Shown: positions 3,001-21,118 of the stretch, piece by piece
How the letters are laid out: each line of letters begins with the position of its first letter
How positions within the stretch are numbered: the first letter of the stretch is position 1
DNA from: a virus
Strand: one strand, 5' to 3'
IMG/VR virus record: IMGVR_UViG_3300020395_000108
Coordinates: 1-23,454 of that record
DNA length: 23,454 bases
Made by a program: the position numbers and the translations under genes
Notes under the pieces: model-generated
The model's database searches: none
What the model saw: the letters and a program-made list of their open reading frames with translations, nothing else
What the model was told of the DNA's origin: nothing

Positions 3001-6000
3001 GATTGAATTACAATTCTAGTATTAAGTTTTGCTGTCTTAAGTCTTGGTTTTGCCTTAGTTACTTCAAGAGTAGCACTCAACTTTAACTTAGGAAATTTTG
3101 TATAGTTAGATGCATCACCACCAAAGAATGTCTGTGGCAAACTAAGTACAACACTACCAGATGTTAAACCACTAGCAGAATCAGTAGAAGCACTAATATC
3201 AACTTGATCTGATGTAATATAAACTATATCACCTTTTTCAATATCAGTTGCACTTCCTTCATCTAAAATTGTAATTAGGAAATTACTTTCATTAAATGAA
3301 ACAAATCTTTGAGTACCAAATGGTAATTGAGCAGTGAAGGTAATACTACCACCACTAGAACTACCAGTACTTACAAAATCTCTTCTTACATAATGAACAA
3401 TCTTAGAATCTTCACTACTTGCTACAATAGAAGAAACTTCTTTTGTTCCTGTCTTATAAAGTAATGTTCCTTGATTGAAGTTTACAATAGAAGGACGTAT
3501 TCTAACAACACTCGTGTTACTTACATCATCAGGTAATGCTCTATCAAAATAAATTCTTGACTTCAATACACCAGATGGTTCTGTTGCATATTGAACAATA
3601 CAACGAACAATAGTATCTGTAGTATCAGAGAATTGTACAATATCTCCTTGTTGTAGTATCTTTGTACTATCACCACCAAAACCATTACACTCAATAAACT
3701 TATTACCCTTTACACCACTAAATGTAAAGTTTGTTACAGAAATAACTTCAGCATACTTTTCATTGTTGATTTCAATATCAGCTGTAAATACATTAGCATT
3801 ACCAGAACCAAATTCTGAATAGAATGATTTGACGTTCTGAGGGGTGTATGTAGTTACTGAGTTTCTAACAAGAACTGGAGTAATCTTTGCAACCTTTGTG
3901 GGTTCAGATTTTCCTTCTGCCTGATTGATTATCACAACAGGAGGTTTTGCATATTCTGTTTTTACAAATTCTCTACTTACAATAGTTGCCTGTAATACTT
4001 TCTTACTGGTTGGTATATTAAGTTTGATCTTAGAAGAATCAAAATCAACTCCATCAATCTTTATTGAAGATCCACTCTCATAACCAACACCAGGGAAAGT
4101 AATGATAAAATGTGATATTGTATTATCTTGAGCAATTCTAACAGAATTGTTATTTTCATCTCTAATAATTTCACCACTCTTAAAGTTTCCAAAAAGAGTT
4201 TTAACCATCAAAGTTTTATTTTTGCTATATGATCCAGTTGAAGAACCTTCTATAACACCATAAGCACCGCTTGTAATACCGTAGATATACTTTCCAGTTA
4301 GAAATCCACCTGTTCCTTCAATTGAATCGTCTAAGAGAATTTTAGTAAAGAATTGAGGATCAAAATAAGATAAACCAAATACACTGTTATAAACAGCAGT
4401 ACCGTCATTTTTTCTACCTTTAGAAAGAATAATATCAGTATCAGTATTGAATCCTGTTCCCCTATCTACCAATGTAAAGTTGCTTGGTTTAGCAATACCA
4501 ACAACAGGTGTTATTGTCTCATTGTAGTCTCTTATAATACCAAATCTATTCTGATCATTCTCTCCATCTATTTGAGTTCTGAATAATTCTCTATTTCCAG
4601 AATCACTAGAATTTTCACTATCATATTCAGTAAAAAACTTATCAAGAAGATTCTTGTCACCTTTAAGTGTTAATTCAAGATATGTTTTTGCTGAAAAAGC
4701 AGGATCATCTAATTCAGGTCTAGAAACCTCAGAGTAACCAATAACATCAATTGAACTAATGGTATTAGGAATACCGCTTGTATTTCTTCCTTGTACCCAA
4801 TAAAGTGTTGATAATGCTGCCAATCTTGCATCAAATGTATCTGTAGCACCTACACCAGATATAGATGATACTGTTACTGTAATAGCAGCACCCCCACCAG
4901 CACCTAGAAGTCCATCAGAGATACTTAAAGTGTCTGTAGCAGCATATCCTGTACCTGCTACATTCAACGTCACTGTAGGCGTTCCATCTGCTCCTACAAC
5001 AACATCAAATGTTGCACCAGCTCCAGATCCTGTAGATGTTGTTGCTGCAATATTAAGATATGTTCCAGCAGTTCTATTTGCATCAGCAGCACCATCATTA
5101 GTAAAAGTTCCAATACCACTAGCAGCACCATTTAATGTACTTAAATTTACACTAGAATCTTTTTCTACATAAACAGTTTTAACTCCTGTATTTTGATCAA
5201 AGAAAGAACCTCTACGAGATACAGTCTGCTTTGAATCATTAGAACCCTCAGTTCCACTTAAACCAATACTTCCATCATTAAAAACAGAAGATAAAAATAC
5301 ATTAGGATATGCAGTTAAATCACCACCATCAGCATTAAGTGGTGTGCTTCCATATGTGTTTGTAATTCTATAAGTAGGAAGTCCAGAAGTCTTTAAACGA
5401 ATATCAGATCTATCAAGAGTTTCTCTTGCTTTGGATATAGGAAGATATTTTGTCTCCTTATTAACAATCTCAAAACCTTTTACGTATGCTTTACCAGAAC
5501 CAACGCTTGCAAGTAATTTACCTTTTGCATCATCTACTGTAAGACCATTAACCTTACCAAATTCATCAGCAGAATATACTCCTAAGTTACCTTCATTCTG
5601 ATAATATTCTCTAACATCCAAAGAAAAATCTTCAACAATATAATCTCCAGACTCATCATAAGTCCTTCTTGCTAAAGTTTGCTCTATAAGATTATAATCT
5701 GTTTGTGTTATTTGAGATTGTACAGATCCACTCTTAACTGTAAGAATCTGAATAAAATTCTTTTCTGTAGTTGCATTTAAATCATACTTGACTAAATCAA
5801 GAACAATCTTTAATCTATTTGCACCTGGTGCAGAATAATTATTAGATCCAATAGCATTGTCATATAAAGAAGCATCTTCTTCTGCTGTTACAATACTTTC
5901 GCTAATCTTAAAACCAACCTTTGCAGATGGTTTATTGTAATACTTATCAACTATAAGAAGTTGTTCCGCATTTCTTACAAAATATCCATTAACAAAGTAA

Positions 6001-8511: not shown

Positions 8512-11500
8512 TTAATTTGCGTTTCTTAAGAATGCTCCCACAGTATGACTCTCTATAGGAGAACCATCTACTCCACGTGAGCATCCAATGAAACGATCAC
8601 TTAGTTTACTGGTATAAGAAATAGTCTCTCTACCAATTAAAATTTTACCTGTTGCAGGGAATTTAGTAGTGTTTGCGTAAACTACTGCACCTGTTGCGAC
8701 ATATCCTGCACCATTCGCATCAGGGAGATCTGTAGTATCTAGTTGACTTAGATAGTTGTTGATAGTTGGATAGGCAACATTCATTGAATATTGACTACTA
8801 GACCATCCAGATCCAGCATAGTCAGAAAACTCTAATAACTGGAATCCATATCTATCAAACTCTTCAATGGTATACTCAGAAACTGAATGTCCTGCTTGAG
8901 ATAAAATATCTCCTGTATCCATAAATTTAGCACCTTCCCATTGGAAGAAAGCAGGTCTCATAGTAGTATTATGTAGCGGAGGAGGAGCAGAGTTATATGC
9001 TGGATTATAGAAACGGTGATCAACAAATCCCAACTGGTATGTAGTAGAAGATTCTCCACCTTCTCCTCCACCGCCACCGCCACCACCGCCTCCTCCCCCG
9101 TTTCCAGGGAATTTAGGACCAGGTAGTCTATTACCATTGACATCAATCCAACTATGGAATCCAACAGCAGCTTCATATGCTCCCAATTCAAGTATACTTG
9201 TTCCTTGAGAAGTAAGATCACCACAAGGAGGAACAGTTACAGAATCAACAACAGTTGGCCAGTATCTTACAATTTCTTGTGGAAGTGCTACTGGTGCAGG
9301 GAAGGTAAACGTAAGATCAAATGTATTAGTAATTTGAATCATACTACCAGTCCAAGTAGAATCTGCCCAAGGATATAATTTATGTGAATTATCAAAAGGA
9401 TCATCAGGAAGAGTAGGATTTCCTCCTCCTCCACCGCCTCCTCCACCGCCTCCACCGCCTCCACCACCACCGATTCCTCGGATAGGTGTGACTATGGAAA
9501 TGATGCTTAGGTTATCAACAAGAATATCATTCTCAAAACCTAATTCAATAAGACTATCAATCTTTCTACCATTTTTCTTAATTACTTTAAACTGTCTAGT
9601 AACAACAACTCTTGGTGCAGTTGTATAACCAGAACCAGCATCAGTAATAACAATATCAACTACAGTTCCTTTCTGTACTATAACTTCTGCCTTTGCACCA
9701 CCACCTTGTTTGTTAACAGGAAGGAATTGTAGTACAGGTGTACTATAGTACCCTCCAACAACACCAGAATCCTTATTCCAAGTTATAGCAGTTACTTTAC
9801 CATCTGTAACAGTACATTCAACACTTAGACCAGTTCCATAAGTGTCACCTGAATACTTGGTTACTAATACAGGTCCATGGAAACTATTTGATACATCACC
9901 ATCTACATTATAATTTTTAGGTGTTACATAACGAGGAAGTTTATTAACTGTTCTCCATTCTTGTTCACCATCAACTTTGATTAAATCACCATCAATTAAA
10001 TTAGCACCATTTCTATTTCTTTCAAAATATGCTTCATCTGCTCTAGGAGTACCATACAACCATCTAGCAGAATTTCTCTGCATTTGATTCTCGTTAAATC
10101 CATCCTTAACAGGAACAAGTGTATCTGTTGTTCCTGTTAATTCATATTCATCACTGAAGTCTGGTTTGCCAGCAAAGAATATATTTGATGCATCCAATGT
10201 CTGATTACTACCAGCAATGGTAACAATCAAAGTATTTGAAGTAGTTGTGTATAGTTTTACATTACCAATATACTTCTTAACACCACCAACCTTTTGATAT
10301 GCAACTTGATGATCATTATGTGATAAATTATACCAAGAAATCCAATTAATGAAATCATTAGGAGAACCAGCATCACATGTCAGTTTAAGTTCATTATAAT
10401 ATTGATTTCTTTCATAATCAAATAAAGTTAATGTTGTTTCAGACTCCCTACCATAAAGACTAATGATATGAACATTATTCTTTGGAGAAATAGGTCTCAT
10501 GAATCTAATAGAAGGTCCACTAATAACATAAGACTTATTTTCTATCTGTAATACACCATCTAAGAATACAAATACAAATGTACTATTATCAATAGATTTA
10601 ATATCATTATTATTGTCTACAATTAAGAATGGACCTGTTCCAGCACTATTAATACTAATACTAAACTTATTATATGATCCAATACCTTGACCAAAGAATC
10701 TTTCAACTGCTAAACCTTCATATACAGTCTTAGTATTCTTTGACTGACCCCATATAGGAGGTTTTGAGAATACAATCTTATTAGGTATTGATGATCTATC
10801 AATACTATATGCATCTCCAACTTGTAGAACACCACTTAAAGCAATCCACAAATCTTCATTTGTTTCAGTATCAACTGGTTTACCATCTTCATAATACAAA
10901 TCAAATATAGTATTCTCACCATTAAAATAATCTGGATATCCAACTTCAACAGAACCAGGACCAGTAGTAAGAATAACTCTTATAACTTCAGATAAGGTAT
11001 CCAAAGCAGAAAGAACATCTGCACACTTAACAGGACCACTATCAGTTAAGATATCATTATCAATAAATCCACCTGTTAGTTCATTGTTTATTGCTTCTTT
11101 AGCAAGTCCAACAGCATATTGGAACGCTTCTATTGTTGGTTCTAATTCACCATCAATATAATCTAAAAGACCGTTGTTGAAATATTTCTCTAGAGAAACT
11201 TTTGTCTTTTCATTACCACCAAACCTTATATCATGTGCTAATGCATCTACTATAAATCCAATGTCTCTAAAACATTTTGTACTTAATGAGTTCCAAGCAA
11301 GTGTAGGATGGACAGTCTTTATATGTGTGAGTGTTGAATCCTGAATAAATTCTTTGTTCCTTTCAATCTGATTAGAAGCATCTAACCATCTACCATTTCT
11401 TTGGAAGATATTTCTAATTTTCTTTAAGTATTTGGTACTTAAATTATTACTCTTAAATTGGAATTTTTTAGCATAGAAAGAAACTCCTTCTAATGGTGCT

Positions 11501-14500
11501 TCTGCAAAGGTTATCTTATCATTAGTGACAGTATATGCTTTACCTGGTTCTTGTAATATACCATCTAATGTAACAACTAATGCTTGACTATTAAATGGTG
11601 TAACTGCATTATTGTTATTATCTACAAGAGTAAATTCTTTTTGACCTATACGATTTCCTTTATTTCCAAACGATCCATTAAATGATGCATTTAATTTTAT
11701 ATCATCCTTACCAAGGATCTCACTTGTATTAAGAGCATCAAGAGCAACTGATCCAACACCATTCTGAACATTCAAATTGTCCATCAAAATGATATTCTGT
11801 GTAATTTGCTTTCTTACACTTTCTACTGTTATCTTATTCTTATTTGGATCCCATGCTTGAATTACTGAAACTCTGCTAGTAGCAGGAGTATCACTCATTT
11901 TTGCTTCTACTTCACTCTCAATTAAAACTTCACCAAACAACTGAAATCCAGCTGGATGAGTTGTTTCTTTGATGAGTTGTCTCCAAGTATCTACTGAAGT
12001 CTTAGACTTAATTGTATATGAGAAATCTTGATAGTAGTAAGAATCATGGATTCTCTGATTTGCGTCACTAACTTTTCCAGCATCAGAACTATAGAATCCT
12101 ATATTATCAAAATTTGTTTGAATAATAGGAGAGAATTCAGTAAAACTAATATTTTTTAAATTAGCAGTTTGATGTCTAGCAAGACCAATAATATTTTGAT
12201 CTTTTCTAAAAATACCTGTAACTCTGTCAACTATAAGAATATTAGATCCTTCTGTCCATGAAGTAACTCTTGCTCTAGCAATTTCTACTGTGCCAGATTT
12301 TTGAATAATAGTTTCACCAACACTAAATGGTTTTTGATTGAAATTAGATAGTGTGAATACGTAGTTTGATCTAAATGTAGATTTTAAACTATCATCATTA
12401 TGATAAGATCCACCATTATTGATAATCTTAATATTGCTAGGAATTCCTATGTCATTACTTGATAAGTAACATTTAACAGTAGTATCAACATTACCAGAAG
12501 AATCAATAATACCAGTAACAATAGGAAGTTTTTTATAATTCAATCCTGTATTAGAAACTTTAATAGAATCAATCTCACCAACTGCAAATGAGGATTTGGT
12601 TGTATAACTCATAGATCCTGTACCATCATGAGTGGTAGGTGTCTCTGTAGAGTATAAAATTTTTGTTGGAGTTACATATAGAACAGTTTTGTCACCATTT
12701 AAATTATCATCAATAACATTTAAGTATGAACCTTCTGCATTTACAATATTGTTATTATCAAAATAATAATATTTGTTATATGGACTATCTACTTTATTGG
12801 TATATGCATTTGTAGAAATTCTAGAACCAAAACCAACTTTAATATTGGTTTCAAAAATAGTAGGAGAATCCTTTTCTATAGCAACAAGATTATGATTTAT
12901 ACTTGGTGATAGATCAAACTTCTTACCAATCATTGATGAATGAGAAGTATTAAAGATATACTTGTAATATCTCTTAATATCAATTATCTTATTTCTTTCA
13001 CCATCAATCTCAAAGCATGTAACAGGATCACTAACATTGCTTATATTGACAATTCTATTAATAGGAGTACTTTGATCTTTAAATACAGAACTTAATGTGA
13101 GATATGTTGGAGTAATACCATACCCATACTTAAATACCACCTTTTGTGTTACTGCGTCATATGATACAACATATGGTTGAGATGCATCAGCAGTTTCTTG
13201 ATTGATTTGATATCCACTATTAAGAGTAAATCCTGCATCCTGTAAAGTAATAGATGCTCCATCAAAATGATCCGATGGTTTAGTTCCTCTATCAACAGTA
13301 ATAGTATTACTATTAATACCTGTTATTGTTACAACCTCAGTACCAATAACAAGTTTATCATTAACACTAAAACCAAGAGAACTTGTAACTATAAGATCTG
13401 TTCTTTCTTTAGCAAAGCCTGCATGATCTACTTCTATTTTCAATGATGCTGTATTTGTATTAGTTTTTACTAAATCAGAATCACCTACAGTCAACACATC
13501 ATACTTTTCATACCCAGTTCCTCTATCAGTTAAGGTAATTTCATTAACTACACCAGAACTAGAAACTTTAATTGTTGCCTTTGCACCACTTCCTGTTCCA
13601 CCTGATAGTGCTATGTCAACATATTCATTTGGAGTATAATCTGCACCACCATTTAATATTGAAAATCTTCCAACTCCACTATCGCTGAGAACCGTTGCTA
13701 CAACAGGGATCTCAACGGTGACTTCTTGATATATAGTAGACTTTACTTCGTATGTTGTTGTAGTGGTAGAATCATTAGGATTTACATCTACCGTTATTTT
13801 TTCTCCTTCAGCAACACCGTGGTTTAATCCTGTTGTAAGTAGAGCAACATTATCTTGTACTGTTCTAATATCTAAATTTTCACTTAAGGAATTGATAGAA
13901 ATTATTTTAGAACCAGGTGTGTTTAATAAATCAGAACTGGAAATGAATAATGTTGATGAAATTACAAATCCTTCCTGTGTTACCTTTACTTTAACACTAT
14001 TTTGTGAAGATGTAGTTTCTAATACCTCACCTTTAGCAACAGGAAGTGCAATACCATCACCTAATGACAGAATAGCACCTTTTGTATATGATGAATTCTT
14101 GTCAAGGAGTAATGTTAATACCTTAGTATCAGATGTTAGTGTTCCAGAAGCACTCCATATGCCTGTTACAGAGCGAATAGGAAACTTAGTAGCAGAGAAT
14201 ACATTGCCAACTACAAGACCTGTTGCAGACCCTTGTGTAACTCTATCACCATCAAACAAATAAGCAGTATCACTCAAAGACAGATATAATACTTTATCAG
14301 TTTGAGACTCAATTGAGACTACTGACTTTCCTTTAACAGAATCAACTTCTGCATCTACACCAGTACCACCAGTACCACTCTCATCAATAACTAACTTAGA
14401 ACCAACTGAAAATTTATCAGAAGATGTTTCTATAACAGCAGATGCTATACTACCTCTAGTTACATCTTGTATTTGAAGTGATGTACCATCACCATTGTTC

Positions 14501-17082
14501 TCAATATCAGAAGTCCTTAATCTTCTCGCACTTTTTGGTAAATCATATTGATTTAATGCTGAATTGTAGTTGGAATCAACAGGTAGAGAATAATAAGATT
14601 TACCAACAACATAAGGATATACAGGGACATTCGTATCATCCACTGTAATAAAATATGCATAAGTGCCATTTGGATATTCAGGTGTGACACAATAACGACC
14701 ATTGTTCTTATCTAAAGAACCTCTTTCATGAACATACACCCAATCTTGAATGAATGTGCCAATTGGATAATCGGACTCAGCAGGACCACCATCTCTAATA
14801 GTTACTGGCATATAACTACTACTCATCCTAGAAATAGAACTAGATGGATCTAAAGGATCTGAATAAGCATAAGCACCATATATGGGGTTACCGTCATATG
14901 CAAACCCTAGAATAGAAGAATGTGATGCTCCTGTGTCATTTGTTCTTAATGTAGTAGGAGATGCAAGATATCCATATCCTTGTCCTATAGAAGTAACGTA
15001 GTTATAAAAGAATGTACCATTCTCAGAATCTACAGATGTCTTCTTAAATCTATCCTTTCTCCACTCTTTAATAGTAGCAGTCGCAATAGCACCAGATCCT
15101 ACAGGAATGATATCTATCAAAACATTACCTGAAGTATATCCCTTACCACCATTAACTTTAACCAAATTAGTCAACTCACCAGAAGTTGATACTTCTGTTG
15201 TATAAACAGCAAATTGTCCTCTACCTGCTAAATCAGAGATTCTAACTTCAGGTGGAGAAGAATAATACTCACCAGCATTATCAATAGAGATACTAGTAAT
15301 TTCACCATTTGTAACAATAGGAGTTACTTGTGCATTTCTACCAGACAATATTTCAATTGTAGGAACAGATGTATAATCACCTGTTGTAACAATTGATACA
15401 GACTCAACAACTTCACCAGCAAGTTTTGTTGTTGCTTGATTAGCAACTCCATCAACTAAAACAAAAGGTGGTTTCTTATAACCATTACCCCTCTTATCTA
15501 CATCAATTTTTTGAAGTGGTCCATTGAGTATTACATCATCATCTTTATAACTTAGGAATGGAATACCATTAATAGCAATACCAACATCTCTAGACCCAGT
15601 ATCATATACTTCACTAGTAGAGATTGGTTTCTTTCTAATAATCTTTAAATGCTTTTGATCTGCTGCATCAGAAGGTAGTGTTCCAATAACATGTGAAGGA
15701 AATCCAGATGATGCAATGTAATAGGAATCATCATCTTCATAGATTGCAGAAACATTAGAATTTAAATCAGTAATAGCAGGTGTAGTACCACCAATAGTCC
15801 ATCTAAGATTATTTTGTGAATCAAATATTTTTACATCATCAGTAACAAAACCAGACTCAGAAATATCAATGGTATCACCAGAATTTGAGTAAGGAACTTT
15901 ATTATCTACTTCTAAATTGTATACAACACCATAAACTAATAATTCTACTCCATTACCACTTACATCAGAACCAAATGTTACAATTTCTCCAATATCATGT
16001 GTATTATTATTTGTTCTAGATTCAACAATGAATTGGTTTACATTTTTATCACTAAATGTAAATACTTCATTATCAATAATAAATTTTCCTTTATTTTCCC
16101 ACCCCATTGTGGAGAAAACATTAACTCTATCGCCAGTACCAAGGTTTGCTTCTATAGATTTTGTTAACTTTGTTTTTGTAGATACAGAAAATACTCCATT
16201 AACACTAGATTCCGAAAGAATCAATTCATATAATTCGTCACCATCATATTGTCCAGCATATCTTACATTATCTACAATAGCAGAAGCATAATCACCTGTT
16301 GTCTGTGTAATCTTTCTACCAATTAAATCATTTACATCACCAGAAAGAATTTTTGCTTTAATTGAATAGTTATTAATCCAAGTAGAATCTGATGGTTTTA
16401 ATGTATGTTCTCTTGGGTATGAAATTGATGGTTCAGGATCATTATCAATAAGACACTTAAATAAAAACTTAACTGAATCAACAGTTCCTTTTGCTTTATA
16501 AAAAGACGTTATATTCTTAATAAGAGTTCTCTTATCAATATCTTTTTTTAAATACTGTTCTGGAAAATTACTAAGGTATTGCTTCTCAAAACTTTTAACT
16601 AAAGCATATAAGAATAGATTACTAATATTATGTACAGTAGACCCTAATATATGATTGTCTGCCTGTGTTGTTACAAAAGTACTCTTTTCATAAAGATCAC
16701 CAATCTTTGTATTACCACTTACACCACGACTTACTTCTAAAAACTCTGTGTCTGTCCTACTTTTATAGAAACAAATTTCATCATCAATTTTAATATAACC
16801 ACCACTCTCAGGAAATGAAGTAGCATCAACAACAGTAATACTTTTATCTACATCTTGTATATACGTTGTGGTTGTAGATGACTGCTTTAATATATTCTTC
16901 TCGTAAAAATCTATATCACGATACTGTTGGAGATTACTAATAATATCCAACGGTTGACCTTGAATTTCATTCTGCTCATAATACTTCTGTATAAACTTAG
17001 CAAAAAGTTCATACTCTTCGTTGATGAAATCTGGTATTTGTGACTCAATTAAAAATGAGACTTTATTGGCAGTTTTTGGCAC
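8512..17082 (-). CDS. Giant baseplate structural protein in the gp7 position, with YHYH domain and polyglycine linkers
   Basis: 2856 aa, starting with GTG in a TAGTG overlap with the gp6 stop. The N-terminus (IPDFINEEYELFAKFIQKYY, about residues 16-35) is the opening usual for the large protein after gp6 in marine T4-like phages; T4 gp7, at this locus, has 1032 aa. A YHYH-type domain lies near 715-825 (FAYDGNPIYGAYAY, then NNGRYCVTPEYPNGTYAYF). GSGY-type beta modules occur near 555-660, about 1170-1220 and 2440-2520. 'LDGVLQ...Y' modules start near 1838, 2080 and 2172, and KCFRDIGFIVDALAHDIRFG lies near 1930. A beta module with an E(I/V)xxY...SRG core recurs near residues 84-127, 1230-1271 and 2804-2850. 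Two pure glycine tracts lie at 2538-2554 and 2662-2673. I infer a wedge scaffold with exposed, possibly ligand-binding domains. Assignment as the gp7 equivalent rests on position, not on visible sequence identity. Confidence 0.88.
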   Translation of the reverse strand: MPKTANKVSFLIESQIPDFINEEYELFAKFIQKYYEQNEIQGQPLDIISNLQQYRDIDFYEKNILKQSSTTTTYIQDVDKSITVVDATSFPESGGYIKIDDEICFYKSRTDTEFLEVSRGVSGNTKIGDLYEKSTFVTTQADNHILGSTVHNISNLFLYALVKSFEKQYLSNFPEQYLKKDIDKRTLIKNITSFYKAKGTVDSVKFLFKCLIDNDPEPSISYPREHTLKPSDSTWINNYSIKAKILSGDVNDLIGRKITQTTGDYASAIVDNVRYAGQYDGDELYELILSESSVNGVFSVSTKTKLTKSIEANLGTGDRVNVFSTMGWENKGKFIIDNEVFTFSDKNVNQFIVESRTNNNTHDIGEIVTFGSDVSGNGVELLVYGVVYNLEVDNKVPYSNSGDTIDISESGFVTDDVKIFDSQNNLRWTIGGTTPAITDLNSNVSAIYEDDDSYYIASSGFPSHVIGTLPSDAADQKHLKIIRKKPISTSEVYDTGSRDVGIAINGIPFLSYKDDDVILNGPLQKIDVDKRGNGYKKPPFVLVDGVANQATTKLAGEVVESVSIVTTGDYTSVPTIEILSGRNAQVTPIVTNGEITSISIDNAGEYYSSPPEVRISDLAGRGQFAVYTTEVSTSGELTNLVKVNGGKGYTSGNVLIDIIPVGSGAIATATIKEWRKDRFKKTSVDSENGTFFYNYVTSIGQGYGYLASPTTLRTNDTGASHSSILGFAYDGNPIYGAYAYSDPLDPSSSISRMSSSYMPVTIRDGGPAESDYPIGTFIQDWVYVHERGSLDKNNGRYCVTPEYPNGTYAYFITVDDTNVPVYPYVVGKSYYSLPVDSNYNSALNQYDLPKSARRLRTSDIENNGDGTSLQIQDVTRGSIASAVIETSSDKFSVGSKLVIDESGTGGTGVDAEVDSVKGKSVVSIESQTDKVLYLSLSDTAYLFDGDRVTQGSATGLVVGNVFSATKFPIRSVTGIWSASGTLTSDTKVLTLLLDKNSSYTKGAILSLGDGIALPVAKGEVLETTSSQNSVKVKVTQEGFVISSTLFISSSDLLNTPGSKIISINSLSENLDIRTVQDNVALLTTGLNHGVAEGEKITVDVNPNDSTTTTTYEVKSTIYQEVTVEIPVVATVLSDSGVGRFSILNGGADYTPNEYVDIALSGGTGSGAKATIKVSSSGVVNEITLTDRGTGYEKYDVLTVGDSDLVKTNTNTASLKIEVDHAGFAKERTDLIVTSSLGFSVNDKLVIGTEVVTITGINSNTITVDRGTKPSDHFDGASITLQDAGFTLNSGYQINQETADASQPYVVSYDAVTQKVVFKYGYGITPTYLTLSSVFKDQSTPINRIVNISNVSDPVTCFEIDGERNKIIDIKRYYKYIFNTSHSSMIGKKFDLSPSINHNLVAIEKDSPTIFETNIKVGFGSRISTNAYTNKVDSPYNKYYYFDNNNIVNAEGSYLNVIDDNLNGDKTVLYVTPTKILYSTETPTTHDGTGSMSYTTKSSFAVGEIDSIKVSNTGLNYKKLPIVTGIIDSSGNVDTTVKCYLSSNDIGIPSNIKIINNGGSYHNDDSLKSTFRSNYVFTLSNFNQKPFSVGETIIQKSGTVEIARARVTSWTEGSNILIVDRVTGIFRKDQNIIGLARHQTANLKNISFTEFSPIIQTNFDNIGFYSSDAGKVSDANQRIHDSYYYQDFSYTIKSKTSVDTWRQLIKETTHPAGFQLFGEVLIESEVEAKMSDTPATSRVSVIQAWDPNKNKITVESVRKQITQNIILMDNLNVQNGVGSVALDALNTSEILGKDDIKLNASFNGSFGNKGNRIGQKEFTLVDNNNNAVTPFNSQALVVTLDGILQEPGKAYTVTNDKITFAEAPLEGVSFYAKKFQFKSNNLSTKYLKKIRNIFQRNGRWLDASNQIERNKEFIQDSTLTHIKTVHPTLAWNSLSTKCFRDIGFIVDALAHDIRFGGNEKTKVSLEKYFNNGLLDYIDGELEPTIEAFQYAVGLAKEAINNELTGGFIDNDILTDSGPVKCADVLSALDTLSEVIRVILTTGPGSVEVGYPDYFNGENTIFDLYYEDGKPVDTETNEDLWIALSGVLQVGDAYSIDRSSIPNKIVFSKPPIWGQSKNTKTVYEGLAVERFFGQGIGSYNKFSISINSAGTGPFLIVDNNNDIKSIDNSTFVFVFLDGVLQIENKSYVISGPSIRFMRPISPKNNVHIISLYGRESETTLTLFDYERNQYYNELKLTCDAGSPNDFINWISWYNLSHNDHQVAYQKVGGVKKYIGNVKLYTTTSNTLIVTIAGSNQTLDASNIFFAGKPDFSDEYELTGTTDTLVPVKDGFNENQMQRNSARWLYGTPRADEAYFERNRNGANLIDGDLIKVDGEQEWRTVNKLPRYVTPKNYNVDGDVSNSFHGPVLVTKYSGDTYGTGLSVECTVTDGKVTAITWNKDSGVVGGYYSTPVLQFLPVNKQGGGAKAEVIVQKGTVVDIVITDAGSGYTTAPRVVVTRQFKVIKKNGRKIDSLIELGFENDILVDNLSIISIVTPIRGIGGGGGGGGGGGGGGGGGNPTLPDDPFDNSHKLYPWADSTWTGSMIQITNTFDLTFTFPAPVALPQEIVRYWPTVVDSVTVPPCGDLTSQGTSILELGAYEAAVGFHSWIDVNGNRLPGPKFPGNGGGGGGGGGGGGEGGESSTTYQLGFVDHRFYNPAYNSAPPPLHNTTMRPAFFQWEGAKFMDTGDILSQAGHSVSEYTIEEFDRYGFQLLEFSDYAGSGWSSSQYSMNVAYPTINNYLSQLDTTDLPDANGAGYVATGAVVYANTTKFPATGKILIGRETISYTSKLSDRFIGCSRGVDGSPIESHTVGAFLRNAN
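9064..9099 (-). repeat. Polyglycine tract 2 (12 Gly) in the giant baseplate protein
   Basis: Twelve consecutive glycine codons (residues 2662-2673), followed by E-G-G-E. All four GGN codons appear mixed, so the protein tract is held by selection for glycine rather than by a pure DNA microsatellite. It separates a short aromatic-rich domain from the C-terminal modules. Confidence 0.9.
9421..9471 (-). repeat. Polyglycine tract 1 (17 Gly) in the giant baseplate protein
   Basis: Seventeen consecutive glycine codons (residues 2538-2554) made of GGA, GGT and GGC in irregular order. With the second tract about 107 residues downstream it brackets a compact segment, as a flexible linker or a glycine-rich surface loop would. 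Confidence 0.9.
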
Positions 17083-18887
17083 TACTCTTTATACGCAACG
17101 AATTTACTATTTGATACATCTACATCTAGATACATCTCACGTTTTACTTCAATATCTTTATTAGCAGGTTTGACACGTAATTCAATACGGTTGTCAGAGA
17201 AACTACCTTTCAAGATAGTAAAGTCATAAATTTGAATTTCACCCTTATCATAATTAACATCACCCACTGAATCATTCAATAAGATTTTATCACCAGTGAT
17301 AGAGTCTAGTCTATATAGCACCAATTTACCATTTCTATCCTCTAGATACGAGGTGTAATTTGGATGTTCAAATACTGTGATACCAGTAGATGAAACTACT
17401 GGATCATCACAATCTTTAAGAAATGCATTCTTATAACAAATTTCATAATAAGTGGAGGTATTGATTTGAGCAATAAAATCCTTCCTCATAGTAATAGAAG
17501 TATCATTTGAATTAATAGCACGATCCGCACCATCTATAACACCAACAAACTTACTATATCTAAACTTACCATTAAACTTCTCTGTTCCTGATGATTTCAA
17601 ATACTCAACTATAGTAGTTGAAACCTTAGAAGCGATATCAGTAGTAAGTAATTTAGTTTTTGTACTATCAAAGTAAATATTACTATCTATTTCAACATAA
17701 AGAATAGAAGGATCAATAAACTCTGGTCTAATAGAAGCAACTGTATACTTCTTAAGTTCAGTCGTCAACTGATTTTTTGTGTATGATGATAGTGATGCTG
17801 CTTCAGTTGGTTTAATAGAAAGAAATACCTTACCATATGCAGGAGGTTCTTGCTCTTCACCACCAAATACTATAATATCACTAATTGCAGGATATATCTT
17901 ACGAACAATAGCAGAGTAATCATTGGAAGTAACTGCTCTATTCTGTGATCCAAAGTACTTAGGAGCATTAAACTTAATATTGGAAATAGATTCAATCTCT
18001 GCTCCTCCGCTTGCTACGGAAGAAGTTGTTAATGTATTTACGGAAAACGGAGTATTTAATGTATTGCCATCACCATCAGTAACAGTTCCATTAAACACAA
18101 AGGACTTAGCACCATTAGTAACAGGACCACTAGTGACAACGTATGAAATTTCAACAATATTATTGTTGCTTAACTTCTCTCCTAATACACCATCACCAAA
18201 GAATACTTCATATTTCTCATCCTCTACTTCACTAAGGAAGTATACTCTATCACTAGAACCAACAGACAGAATATTATCTGCTTTCTCATAAGTATATGAT
18301 ACTGTTGAATTTCCTGATTCAAATACTTTTACCTTAAGTGTGCTAACATCTGCTTTTGAATTATCAATAATAAATCTTTGATTCTTCAGTGAAGTATCTA
18401 CCCTAGTTTTATTAGTAATTAAAGAACCCTCATATACAGGTAAATCAGTAAATGTAGCGGTGTCATTAACAACTTCCGTCTTATAATCTTCCGAAAGAAC
18501 AAACTCATATAAAGAGTCATCATAATTTGTTATGAATCCTGTACCAGCTTCTAATATAACTGAACTTGGTGTTGAATTGCCAGTAAACAACAATTGCATA
18601 TCAATTGCTGCCTTTGGTGACGTGACTGACTTTGGTGAGTAACCTATCTGCTTTGCCAGAGCAACCACGTTGTCTCTCAAGGTGGATGAATCTAAGAACA
18701 GTTCATTGACTACCATGTTAGCGTTAAACGCTGTGTAGTACGTATTATATGCTAATACATCAATCAATTGACTGATAACCGATCCTTCAAAATCATAATC
18801 AGTAAAATCTGTCTCTGCCCTCATATACTCTTTGATGGCAGTCTTTATATCAGCAAAGTCTAAATTGTTTACTTGGGTATAGGGCAT
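17082..18887 (-). CDS. 6: Baseplate wedge subunit gp6
   Basis: 601 aa (T4 gp6 has 660). The N-terminus YTQVNNLDFADIKTAIKEYM, then FTDYDFEGSVISQLIDVLAYN with TYYTAFNANMVVNELFLDS, is the characteristic gp6/baseplate-J opening in marine T4-like phages. Further on come KVFLSIKP with the KNQLTTELKKYTVASIRPEF helix, and VEIDSNIYFD, the usual C-terminal half of gp6. In T4 gp6 forms the inner ring of the baseplate through dimers that join the wedges, binding gp25, gp53 and gp7. The ATG overlaps the gp25 stop (TAATG) and the stop overlaps the next GTG (TAGTG), so the three wedge genes are translationally coupled. Confidence 0.95.
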   Translation of the reverse strand: MPYTQVNNLDFADIKTAIKEYMRAETDFTDYDFEGSVISQLIDVLAYNTYYTAFNANMVVNELFLDSSTLRDNVVALAKQIGYSPKSVTSPKAAIDMQLLFTGNSTPSSVILEAGTGFITNYDDSLYEFVLSEDYKTEVVNDTATFTDLPVYEGSLITNKTRVDTSLKNQRFIIDNSKADVSTLKVKVFESGNSTVSYTYEKADNILSVGSSDRVYFLSEVEDEKYEVFFGDGVLGEKLSNNNIVEISYVVTSGPVTNGAKSFVFNGTVTDGDGNTLNTPFSVNTLTTSSVASGGAEIESISNIKFNAPKYFGSQNRAVTSNDYSAIVRKIYPAISDIIVFGGEEQEPPAYGKVFLSIKPTEAASLSSYTKNQLTTELKKYTVASIRPEFIDPSILYVEIDSNIYFDSTKTKLLTTDIASKVSTTIVEYLKSSGTEKFNGKFRYSKFVGVIDGADRAINSNDTSITMRKDFIAQINTSTYYEICYKNAFLKDCDDPVVSSTGITVFEHPNYTSYLEDRNGKLVLYRLDSITGDKILLNDSVGDVNYDKGEIQIYDFTILKGSFSDNRIELRVKPANKDIEVKREMYLDVDVSNSKFVAYKE

Positions 18888-19279
18888 TATCTCGTTCTAG
18901 ATAGGAAGAATTCTACATTTGTAGGTGGTGTATCAACACCATTAATTTTATATGTCATATCAACATTAAAACCATTATCTCCGTAATTGAGAAAAATGTT
19001 AATATTCAATACATTAATTCTTGGTTCAAACGTAGACAATGAATATAATATGGAACTCTTTATACTAGCAGCAGTAGCATAGTCTAAAGGTTCAAATAAT
19101 TGACTTCTTATATCAGAACCGTACTCTGGTTGAAATAGTCGTTCTCCTTTATTAGTCAGTAACAAATTTACAATTGCTTGCTTAATAGCAGAAGCATCCT
19201 TACTGACAACTAGGTCACCAGTAACAGGATGCTTCTTAAAATTGATATTAATGTCCCGAAAGGACAATTTAGTCGCCAT
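18887..19279 (-). CDS. 25: Baseplate wedge subunit gp25 (gp25/GPW lysozyme-like fold)
   Basis: 130 aa, the usual length of the family (T4 gp25 has 132). Family landmarks are SFRDININFKKHPVTGDLVV at the start, the helix AIKQAIVNLLLTNKGERLF, then QPEYGSDIRSQLFEPLD and the FEPRI motif near residue 88. The protein is part of the inner baseplate wedge next to gp6 and sheath attachment, and is related to the GPW/TssE proteins of other contractile machines. No strong Shine-Dalgarno is visible. Instead a perfect 7-bp inverted repeat ends one base before the ATG. Confidence 0.96.
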   Translation of the reverse strand: MATKLSFRDININFKKHPVTGDLVVSKDASAIKQAIVNLLLTNKGERLFQPEYGSDIRSQLFEPLDYATAASIKSSILYSLSTFEPRINVLNINIFLNYGDNGFNVDMTYKINGVDTPPTNVEFFLSRTR

Positions 19280-19319: not shown

Positions 19320-19616
19320 TTATGTAACTTTGTAAAATGTATACTTCAAAAACAACTCTTCTCCCTTCTTAATAGGTCTAATTGTTGTCATATGATAGAT
19401 TTTACCCCACCCTTGATCTTCATACCCCTTCACGCAATTAGGATCATCACTATGATTCACAAAACCACCTAGAGGAGTTCTCATAATCTTATCATCCACT
19501 ACTATATGGGATATACCAAGATAAATGGTATCTGGTATATCCTCTGTAGCAAAGATGCCCTGTCCTGCGACAGAACTATGCTTAACTTGTAAACAACTGG
19601 GTAGTGCTTGGTACAT
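19320..19616 (-). CDS. Small SET-domain protein (putative protein-lysine methyltransferase)
   Basis: 98 aa made almost wholly of a minimal SET fold. SET landmarks appear in the right order: GQGIFATEDI (residues 18-27), NHSDDPNC (54-61, matching the NHS.xPNC cofactor-binding pseudoknot strand), and RPIKKGEELFLKYTFY (80-95), which holds the GEEL strand and the terminal tyrosines. SET enzymes move a methyl group from S-adenosylmethionine to lysine side chains of proteins. The protein is shorter than most SET domains (about 120-130 aa); the insert between the first and second motif is minimal. The ATG overlaps the oxygenase stop (TAATG), so the two are probably made together. The substrate is unknown; a virion or host protein is inferred from location. 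Confidence 0.85.
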   Translation of the reverse strand: MYQALPSCLQVKHSSVAGQGIFATEDIPDTIYLGISHIVVDDKIMRTPLGGFVNHSDDPNCVKGYEDQGWGKIYHMTTIRPIKKGEELFLKYTFYKVT

Positions 19617-20389
19617 TAGAATTCAATATCTCCCTCAACTTCCGTTGGATTCATTGGTACTTGAGAATCTCTATCCATCATCAGTAAATCTCCATCTTCT
19701 TCTTTGACTCTGGTAAATTTACATGCAATGGTAAATCTATACTTAGGTCCGACCAATGCTTGTGGTTTTGCACAGTGTGGGATACTCCCATCAAAAATAC
19801 ATATTCTACCTGGTACATATGGATTTAAATATACCATCTCAGTTTTATCTTCCTCATAGAAGACCGTCTCGCCACCGTGATTTGATCCCCATTCAATATT
19901 AGGGTATATCAGCATGGTTATAACTTGACCTCTTGTAGGACCATCTACATGGATCTCATGAGAGTCATTTACAAGACCCATATTAACATATGCATTTGAG
20001 AACTCATATTTCTCAGGATCAATAAATTGAGAGAAATTCTCCATACGAAGAGAACTTCCAAAGATAGCAGTACATATATTATCTTCAGGTATTTTACCTA
20101 GGTCTCCATATTTTTTATGAAAGTCCGAACCACAGACAGGACATAAAGATCTTCTATACCTAGTACCATCAGGACCATTATCCATTAACTTATATTCATT
20201 AAGTTGGGGTAGATCAGCCTTAAGTCTTCGGTCACTAATATCTTGTATATCAAAGTTACTTGAATTCGCACAAGAATACTTCAACGACATACAGGTGTCA
20301 TATAGTGCTTGGTGTTCACCAGCCTTGAAAGCCTCATCCATGATAATAATATCACGACCTTCATCAACTTCTATTTTGTTAATTCGCAT
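19616..20389 (-). CDS. 2-oxoglutarate/Fe(II)-dependent oxygenase (prolyl-4-hydroxylase-like)
   Basis: 257 aa. The double-stranded beta-helix core carries the iron triad H147-x-D149 (EIHVDGP) and H205 (FDGSIPHCAKP), with R218 (KYRFTIACKF) as the 2-oxoglutarate-binding arginine. GGETVFYEE (172-180) and PGRICIFDGSIPH (193-205) are typical strands of the P4H-like family. These enzymes couple 2-oxoglutarate decarboxylation to hydroxylation of a protein or small molecule; marine T4-like phages often carry them, with unknown substrate. An extra segment at residues 80-91 contains CPVCGSDFH, which looks like half of a zinc knuckle and is not part of the catalytic core. It starts 53 nt after a small acidic gene and overlaps the SET gene by one base. 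The context suggests a late-expressed modification function. Confidence 0.88.
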   Translation of the reverse strand: MRINKIEVDEGRDIIIMDEAFKAGEHQALYDTCMSLKYSCANSSNFDIQDISDRRLKADLPQLNEYKLMDNGPDGTRYRRSLCPVCGSDFHKKYGDLGKIPEDNICTAIFGSSLRMENFSQFIDPEKYEFSNAYVNMGLVNDSHEIHVDGPTRGQVITMLIYPNIEWGSNHGGETVFYEEDKTEMVYLNPYVPGRICIFDGSIPHCAKPQALVGPKYRFTIACKFTRVKEEDGDLLMMDRDSQVPMNPTEVEGDIEF

Positions 20390-20395
20390 AATTTG

Positions 20396-20442
20396 TATAG
20401 TACTTTAGAGTCCCTCGGTGTTTTCGGGTCGGAGACCTCGCC
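20396..20442 (-). other. GC-rich structured linker before the oxygenase gene
   Basis: This short gap is clearly richer in G and C than its neighbours. It holds GGTC-TCC-GACC, a 4-bp hairpin, followed by CACCGAGGGACTC, which can pair imperfectly with GAGGTC upstream. There is no T-run, so it is not a classical terminator. It may slow or process the transcript between the small genes and the oxygenase-SET pair. No late promoter box was seen here. Confidence 0.35.
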
Positions 20443-20592
20443 CTAAAACTGCTTCGGATGGGTTACCACGTCACCGTGTATCTCACCGATATCATCTATG
20501 TGGGCATGATCAATATCAACATGCAACTCTTTCTCAAAAGCATCTGCAATCCTCTCAAGGGCAGAAGCAATCCTCAGTAATTCTTCGCTCAT
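20443..20592 (-). CDS. Small acidic helical protein, function unknown
   Basis: 49 aa beginning MSEELLRIASALERIADAFE, a clear amphipathic helix with leucine/isoleucine spacing, followed by an acidic, histidine-rich tail (HVDIDHAHIDDIGEIHGD) ending in KQF. Its ATG overlaps the stop of the preceding basic gene (ATGA), which supports both as genuine. The helix could dimerise. The His/Asp tail could bind a metal or the basic partner; that is inference. I recognise no named family. Confidence 0.7.
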   Translation of the reverse strand: MSEELLRIASALERIADAFEKELHVDIDHAHIDDIGEIHGDVVTHPKQF

Positions 20593-20723
20593 CTGCCCTG
20601 TCCTCTGTAACGCTTCTTAGCAGCATTGCGAGAAGTAGCAGAAAGCTTTGTGTTCTTCCCACGTCCTTGTCTAGTATTCTTTGGTTTTGCAGGAACGTAT
20701 GTTCCACCACCCATAATTGCCAT
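20589..20723 (-). CDS. Small basic glycine-rich protein, function unknown
   Basis: 44 aa: MAIMGGGTYVPAKPKN then RQGRGKNTKLSATSRNAAKK and RYRGQGR. It is strongly basic with no hydrophobic core, so it is probably an unstructured nucleic-acid- or protein-binding peptide. Peptides of this type (MGGGTY..KPKNT..G.GKNTK) occur in marine T4-like phages as far as I recall, without known function. A second in-frame ATG three codons in could be the real start. It lies 29 nt after PAAR and overlaps the acidic 49-aa gene by 4 nt. The opposite charges of the two products suggest they may interact. Confidence 0.72.
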   Translation of the reverse strand: MAIMGGGTYVPAKPKNTRQGRGKNTKLSATSRNAAKKRYRGQGR

Positions 20724-20752: not shown

Positions 20753-21118
20753 TCACGGAATCGGTGGACCTGCAACTATCGTACCAGCAAATACACCTGT
20801 TAATGGATTATCAACACCAGATGCTGTAGTTACAACTCCTGTACCAACTGTATCACCAAGTGTTGATATAACCTTCCCATTTACAAATACACTAGGAGCA
20901 CCTGGTCCAACTATCGGTTTGGTAATGGGAACACAAACAGGGGGTATACCTGATGAGTAAGGTGCTGTTAGATCTCCCAACATAGCCGCAGGTTGACCAT
21001 TAACAATAACTCCTGTAAGACCAACAGCACCAGGTCCAGCAATCGCAGTAACTCCTGTGACGTTGCATGGATCAAATGTAGTGGCAGTGTCTCCTACCCT
21101 CGTTACTCCTCCTGGCAT
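20753..21118 (-). CDS. PAAR-domain spike-tip protein
   Basis: 121 aa. It opens with MPGGVTRVGD and repeats the PAAR beta unit: VGLTGVIVNGQPAAMLGD (residues 32-49) and APSVFVNGKVISTLGD (74-89). PAAR proteins form a small cone that caps the central spike of contractile tails (T4 gp5.4) and pierces the host envelope. The family usually holds a metal with histidines and a cysteine, but this protein has no histidine at all; C18 and C62 are the only cysteines. A GAGGA sequence lies about 10 nt before the ATG. The start overlaps the end of the upstream coiled-coil gene by 16 nt. Confidence 0.9.
   Translation of the reverse strand: MPGGVTRVGDTATTFDPCNVTGVTAIAGPGAVGLTGVIVNGQPAAMLGDLTAPYSSGIPPVCVPITKPIVGPGAPSVFVNGKVISTLGDTVGTGVVTTASGVDNPLTGVFAGTIVAGPPIP

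Follow-up and report, generated by a model that had tools for sequence, protein, structure and literature searches.

The locus considered here raises the question whether two enzymes encoded by overlapping genes in the baseplate operon of a T4-like cyanophage, a 2OG-Fe(II) oxygenase and a minimal SET-domain protein, act as one unit on a virion protein or represent independent cargo. The window, i.e. the whole 23.5-kb stretch of DNA from an IMG/VR virus record that was analysed, carries this operon on its minus strand in the order two small ORFs, PAAR protein, phrog_516, 49-aa ORF, oxygenase, SET protein, gp25, gp6, a 2856-aa protein and a gp8-like wedge (Table 1). A first-pass annotation had placed the two genes, with a TAATG overlap and intact catalytic motifs, between the PAAR spike tip and gp25 and regarded them as a coupled cassette. 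The overlap and the motifs were confirmed, as was the position upstream of gp25, but phrog_516 and the 49-aa ORF separate the PAAR gene from the oxygenase gene. Matches to the T4 late-promoter consensus were not enriched (60 found, 76 expected). The 2856-aa structural protein (window 8512-17082), which has the gp6 and the gp8-like gene on either side, contains two poly-glycine runs near its C-terminus.

Table 1. Positions of the oxygenase and SET genes and of the surrounding features in the window, listed from the upstream to the downstream end of the operon section.
Feature	Position	Strand	Evidence or remark
PAAR spike-tip protein	20753..21118	-	PF05488, E 3.3e-7
phrog_516, 44-aa Lys/Arg-rich peptide	20589..20723	-	Upstream border of the cargo slot
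49-aa acidic ORF	20443..20592	-	Overlaps the phrog_516 stop (ATGA); homologue in contig L064
Conserved boundary/leader element, ~50 bp	20390..20444	-	GGTCTCCGAC..CGAA..CCGA, directly before the cargo
2OG-Fe(II) oxygenase, 257 aa, PF13640 type	19616..20389	-	PF13640, phrog_274, phrog_81; HxD...H...R intact
TAATG overlap of oxygenase stop and SET start	19614..19618	-	Sequence; one base common to both ORFs
SET-domain protein, 98 aa, minimal	19320..19616	-	PF00856, phrog_28741, fold model, motifs
gp25 baseplate wedge/sheath initiator	18887..19279	-	PF04965, E 6.4e-15; phrog_261, E 9e-51; downstream slot border
gp6 baseplate wedge	17082..18887	-	phrog_219, E 7.6e-199

The assignment of the smaller protein to the SET family is based on several lines of evidence. 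It matches PF00856 with an E value of 6.8e-11 (43 bits, curated Pfam cut-off 22.4), falls into phrog_28741 in the PHROG search (E 7.5e-51) and gives profile matches to MLL3 (3e-10) and vSET (1.3e-5). Its AF2 model reached a pLDDT of 92.3, and the Foldseek matches of this model include MLL1, vSET (3kma) and PFL0690c, with MLL1, vSET and ASH1L at probability 1.00. All of the 33 aligned relatives from phages and bacteria have G18 and G20 (GxG), N54, H55 and N60 (NHxxxPN motif) and E87 (GEEL); the catalytic tyrosine Y92 is kept in at least 90% of the relatives, and P59, also of the NHxxxPN motif, shows no variation in the 18 phage sequences aligned. Comparisons with relatives gave dN/dS values of 0 to 0.19; the gene is under strong purifying selection. 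As judged from motifs and predicted fold, the protein is probably a SAM-dependent protein-lysine methyltransferase. Phrog_28741, a PHROG of unknown function, is identified here as a SET-domain family, widely distributed among marine phages and with relatives in bacteria.

The PF13640 match of the oxygenase lies just above the cut-off (E 1.7e-6, 29.3 bits, cut-off 27), and the protein also matches phrog_274 (E 3e-19) and phrog_81 (E 1e-6); the best full-length match among phage isolates shows 31% identity. The residues H147, D149, H205 and R218 are invariant in nine relatives, and dN/dS values of 0.17 to 0.33 show that this gene is under purifying selection as well. The model of the oxygenase is of low confidence (pLDDT 52) and was used for fold class only; protein prolyl hydroxylases (P3H1, PHD2) predominate among its top Foldseek matches, which have E values of about 3e-5 to 4e-4 and also include PolD, in our view a small-molecule enzyme. 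By sequence, the best PDB match was a HIF prolyl hydroxylase, which was not significant (E 0.05). Hence, the earlier assumption that both enzymes modify proteins is probably correct, for the SET protein in view of its well-modelled MLL1/vSET-like fold and for the oxygenase in view of the predominance of prolyl hydroxylases among the matches of a low-confidence model. A CPxCG motif (residues 83-87) in the N-terminal half is invariant in the oxygenase family and possibly represents half a metal site. Phrog_274, annotated as 'DNA endonuclease V', also looks like a family of 2OG-Fe(II) oxygenases (examples are L259:828-1394 and L086:2494-3030). The annotation is probably wrong, because the window oxygenase matches this group and the L259 protein matches PF13640 with E 5e-5, just under the cut-off; the name has spread into cyanophage records.

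The adjacency of the two genes proved to be one-sided. While 347 relatives of the SET protein were found in IMG/VR, only 15-18 loci encode a window-type oxygenase, and in every one of them it is situated immediately upstream of SET. Since about 18 IMG/VR contigs contain the pair, it is not unique to the window genome; its position beside gp25 recurs as well, and the existence of hundreds of homologues excludes chance. Constant adjacency of the two genes, as would be expected of a cassette, holds for the oxygenase but not for SET, which mostly occurs without a window-type oxygenase. Relatives differ in the junction between the genes (TAATG, ATGA or a 2-base gap), and SET is found within 40 bp of gp25 both with and without the oxygenase. 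Among 87 non-redundant close SET loci, 66 are situated in the gp25 slot, 17 elsewhere and four could not be placed; a 2OG gene adjoins SET in 26 of the 66 slot loci and in three of the 17 others, leaving 40 and 14 SET genes, respectively, with no adjacent 2OG gene. These partners belong to several unrelated groups, namely the window type, P4H-like PF13640 proteins, PF13759 types and phrog_274 types. SET proteins 93-99% identical to that of the window occur with no window-type oxygenase in three contigs (L016, L018 and L019), and in L016, in which the SET protein is 99% identical, an unrelated 87-aa ORF takes the position of the oxygenase. Moreover, synonymous divergence differs within contig L011 (dS of 0.28 for SET and 0.59 for the oxygenase), as expected if the two genes move separately.

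On the SET tree, which was calculated by a quick method from few columns and has many unresolved forks, 2OG adjacency changed 17 times, 13 of them among the close SETs. Gains and losses of SET, as well as its combinations with various 2OG oxygenases, were independent events. An association is nevertheless visible in phrog_516-anchored slots, which were sampled independently of SET presence: a 2OG gene is present in 5/12 slots with SET versus 2/35 without it (Fisher p 0.008, uncorrected for relatedness), and in an enlarged set including both SET families described below in 3/11 versus 2/72 (p 0.015, likewise uncorrected). For a paired test of slot versus 2OG adjacency, the SET tree offered too few independent pairs. 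Collectively, the gene arrangements characterize the pair as a recurrent association and not as an obligate unit, for which the term coupled cassette is too strong.

The distribution of SET beyond the operon is informative regarding its substrate. Searches by tblastn detected SET in P-SSM7, P-RSM6, AG-345-P14 and Kolga, with a window-type oxygenase beside none of the four. In P-SSM7 the SET gene is located beside nrdB, far from the slot, which in this phage holds a 2OG gene before phrog_516, and Kolga is a Pelagibacter siphovirus; further relatives occur in other phage contigs. Contigs of Pelagibacter, SAR86 and Porticoccaceae (L126, L123, L107 and relatives) likewise carry small SET genes that belong broadly to this family and have host-type neighbours. 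SET is thus not confined to gp25-type baseplate operons, and its presence beside nrdB, in a siphovirus and on bacterial chromosomes excludes a T4-type baseplate protein as general substrate of the family, so that the virion or baseplate target suggested in the initial annotation was not borne out.

The genomic position itself is known as a gene hot spot of T4-like cyanophages, the gp46-gp25 interval (Sullivan et al. 2010, PMC3037559). Here, the borders of the slot are phrog_516, which usually has this role, and gp25, and the cargo ranges from nothing over SET and several 2OG groups to phrog_3704, phrog_3577 and others. The ~50-bp element precedes the oxygenase when it is present and SET directly in contigs lacking the oxygenase; it is the same before oxygenase, SET or phrog_274 oxygenase and rare elsewhere in the compared loci, and would fit a recombination or leader boundary. 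A conserved RNA hairpin before the oxygenase was not supported, because the predicted fold was no better than that of shuffled sequences (z 0.84). The commonest other cargo is phrog_3704, annotated as ferredoxin or PurM (L202:3728-4402; S-SCSM1 5022-5735), and both names look doubtful because the L202 protein has no Pfam match. In the GenBank record of S-SCSM1, the slot of which lacks SET, gp25 and gp6 are marked as virion proteins, while phrog_516 and the slot gene are unmarked; the corresponding publication reports 45 proteins from virion mass spectrometry (PMC9602691).

A second SET family uses the same slot in Synechococcus phages. It comprises a 122-aa protein (PF00856, E 7e-13) whose gene immediately follows phrog_516 in all of the three isolates, SynMITS9220M01 (51724-52086; L502), S-B05 (L503) and Sf-CH1b (L504), and in the five contigs examined (L498:1137-1505, L495:3615-3983, L471, L211 and L273). 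It is followed by phrog_3704, here annotated as PurM. The family shows only a weak relationship to the first one (phrog_28741, E 0.0013) and forms a clade with SH-aLRT support of 99 apart from it, grouped with bacterial SETs, although long branches make the exact neighbours unsure. One GenBank record already labels a member as SET protein. The entry of two unrelated SET types into one slot hints at a local substrate, which is worth testing.

Taking these observations together, we give slightly better than even chances to the reading that the SET protein and the oxygenase are independent protein-modifying cargo enzymes in a hot spot and are not required for baseplate assembly. Both genes would be cargo of the T4-like cyanophage recombination hot spot between phrog_516 and gp25 and their translation would be coupled to that of the baseplate operon. 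The SET enzyme, with its minimal vSET-like fold, may use SAM to methylate a lysine in a host protein, which could be ribosomal, DNA-binding or regulatory, while the oxygenase may separately hydroxylate a protein side chain in the manner of prolyl hydroxylases. Both activities might aid host takeover and need not share a substrate, and neither would be a required step of baseplate assembly. A host protein is the most likely target, with phrog_516 as testable alternative; the presence of SET beside nrdB in P-SSM7, in Kolga and in Pelagibacter, SAR86 and Porticoccaceae argues for a substrate that is independent of T4 baseplates. Two observations point the other way: the higher 2OG frequency in slots with SET, in a test uncorrected for relatedness, hints at cooperation, and the second, unrelated SET family in the same slot hints at a local substrate.

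The local substrate methylated by SET could be phrog_516, the neighbouring core peptide of 44-49 aa, which is rich in Lys and Arg and resembles a histone tail, or gp25, with consequences for DNA, RNA or baseplate binding. We consider this unlikely, although phrog_516 borders the slot, has invariant lysines in the alignment and overlaps with its stop codon the SET start in P-RSM6, AG-345-P14 and two contigs (L025 and L035), and although the second SET family, separate on the tree, directly follows it in every case described above. Of the about 450 cyanophage records with phrog_516, almost none contains SET, SET homologues exist in phages and bacteria that have no T4-like cyanophage operon, and SET is located away from phrog_516 in P-SSM7. 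Position 18 of the last 36 residues of phrog_516 is Lys or Leu depending on the clade. K18, the sole lysine that tracks SET, was found in 65/65 phrog_516 proteins with SET versus 31/37 without it (p 0.0017, uncorrected), but it was rejected as specific SET target, because Leu18 is present in a large clade that comprises, among others, phages with the second SET family, so that SETs do not generally depend on K18.

Distinctly unlikely is the more specific version that two unrelated SET families were independently recruited beside phrog_516 because they methylate this peptide or its baseplate/DNA complex, with 2OG oxygenases as optional partners. If true, it would represent a phage-encoded lysine-methylation system for a basic protein of the phage itself.

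Quite improbable appears the possibility that the oxygenase acts on the 2-oxoglutarate balance or a small molecule and that SET is unrelated to it. The presence of PolD among the fold matches is consistent with such a role, but the best matches of the low-confidence model are mostly protein prolyl hydroxylases, and the constant SET adjacency of the window-type oxygenase would be left unexplained. A modulation of the host 2OG/NtcA status by cyanophage 2OG oxygenases has been proposed (PMC3037559).

The sequential action of oxygenase and SET on one protein, as suggested in the first-pass annotation, is unsupported and highly improbable, because the gene overlap, the invariable SET neighbourhood of the window-type oxygenase, the several 2OG groups adjoining SET and the nominal 2OG enrichment are opposed by the majority of SETs with no adjacent 2OG gene, the replacement in L016, the unequal divergence in L011, the 13 adjacency changes among close SETs, and the general abundance of cyanophage 2OG genes (1-5 per genome, with 24 in S-SCSM1; PMC9602691).

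The analysis adds two points to the present knowledge: a PHROG that had no assigned function represents a very small SET enzyme, and two unrelated SET types have entered one slot. Our literature search found no paper joining SET domains with cyanophages, and to our knowledge little is known about phage-encoded protein-lysine methyltransferases in general. Isolates suitable for experiments are P-SSM7, P-RSM6 and Kolga for the first SET family and SynMITS9220M01, S-B05 and Sf-CH1b for the second. Identification of the SET substrate would reveal a host or phage protein that is methylated by cyanophages during infection.

Among known systems, 2OG genes of cyanophages are already well described (PMC9602691). 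The window oxygenase shares superfamily, catalytic motif and kind of cargo with the cyanophage 2OG-Fe(II) oxygenases of the PF13640/PF13759 types, but its subfamily is distant (31% at best) and found only beside SET. The gp46-gp25 hot spot (PMC3037559) corresponds in location and in its variable small cargo genes, and no mention of SET was found in that paper. The second SET family occupies the same phrog_516-gp25 slot as the first one, but its members have 122 aa, form a separate branch and have phrog_3704 as companion instead of a window-type oxygenase. Phrog_28741, to which the window SET protein belongs, is assigned no function in PHROGs. A characterized counterpart is vSET (A612L, PDB 1n3j/3kma) of the chlorella virus PBCV-1, a 119-aa viral histone H3K27 methyltransferase. 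Both are virus-encoded, stand-alone minimal SET folds with the same motifs (Foldseek TMq 0.72, in addition to the profile match given above), but the phage protein, with 98 aa and almost no SET-I insert, belongs to a different virus realm and host, and histones are absent from the bacteria that these phages infect.
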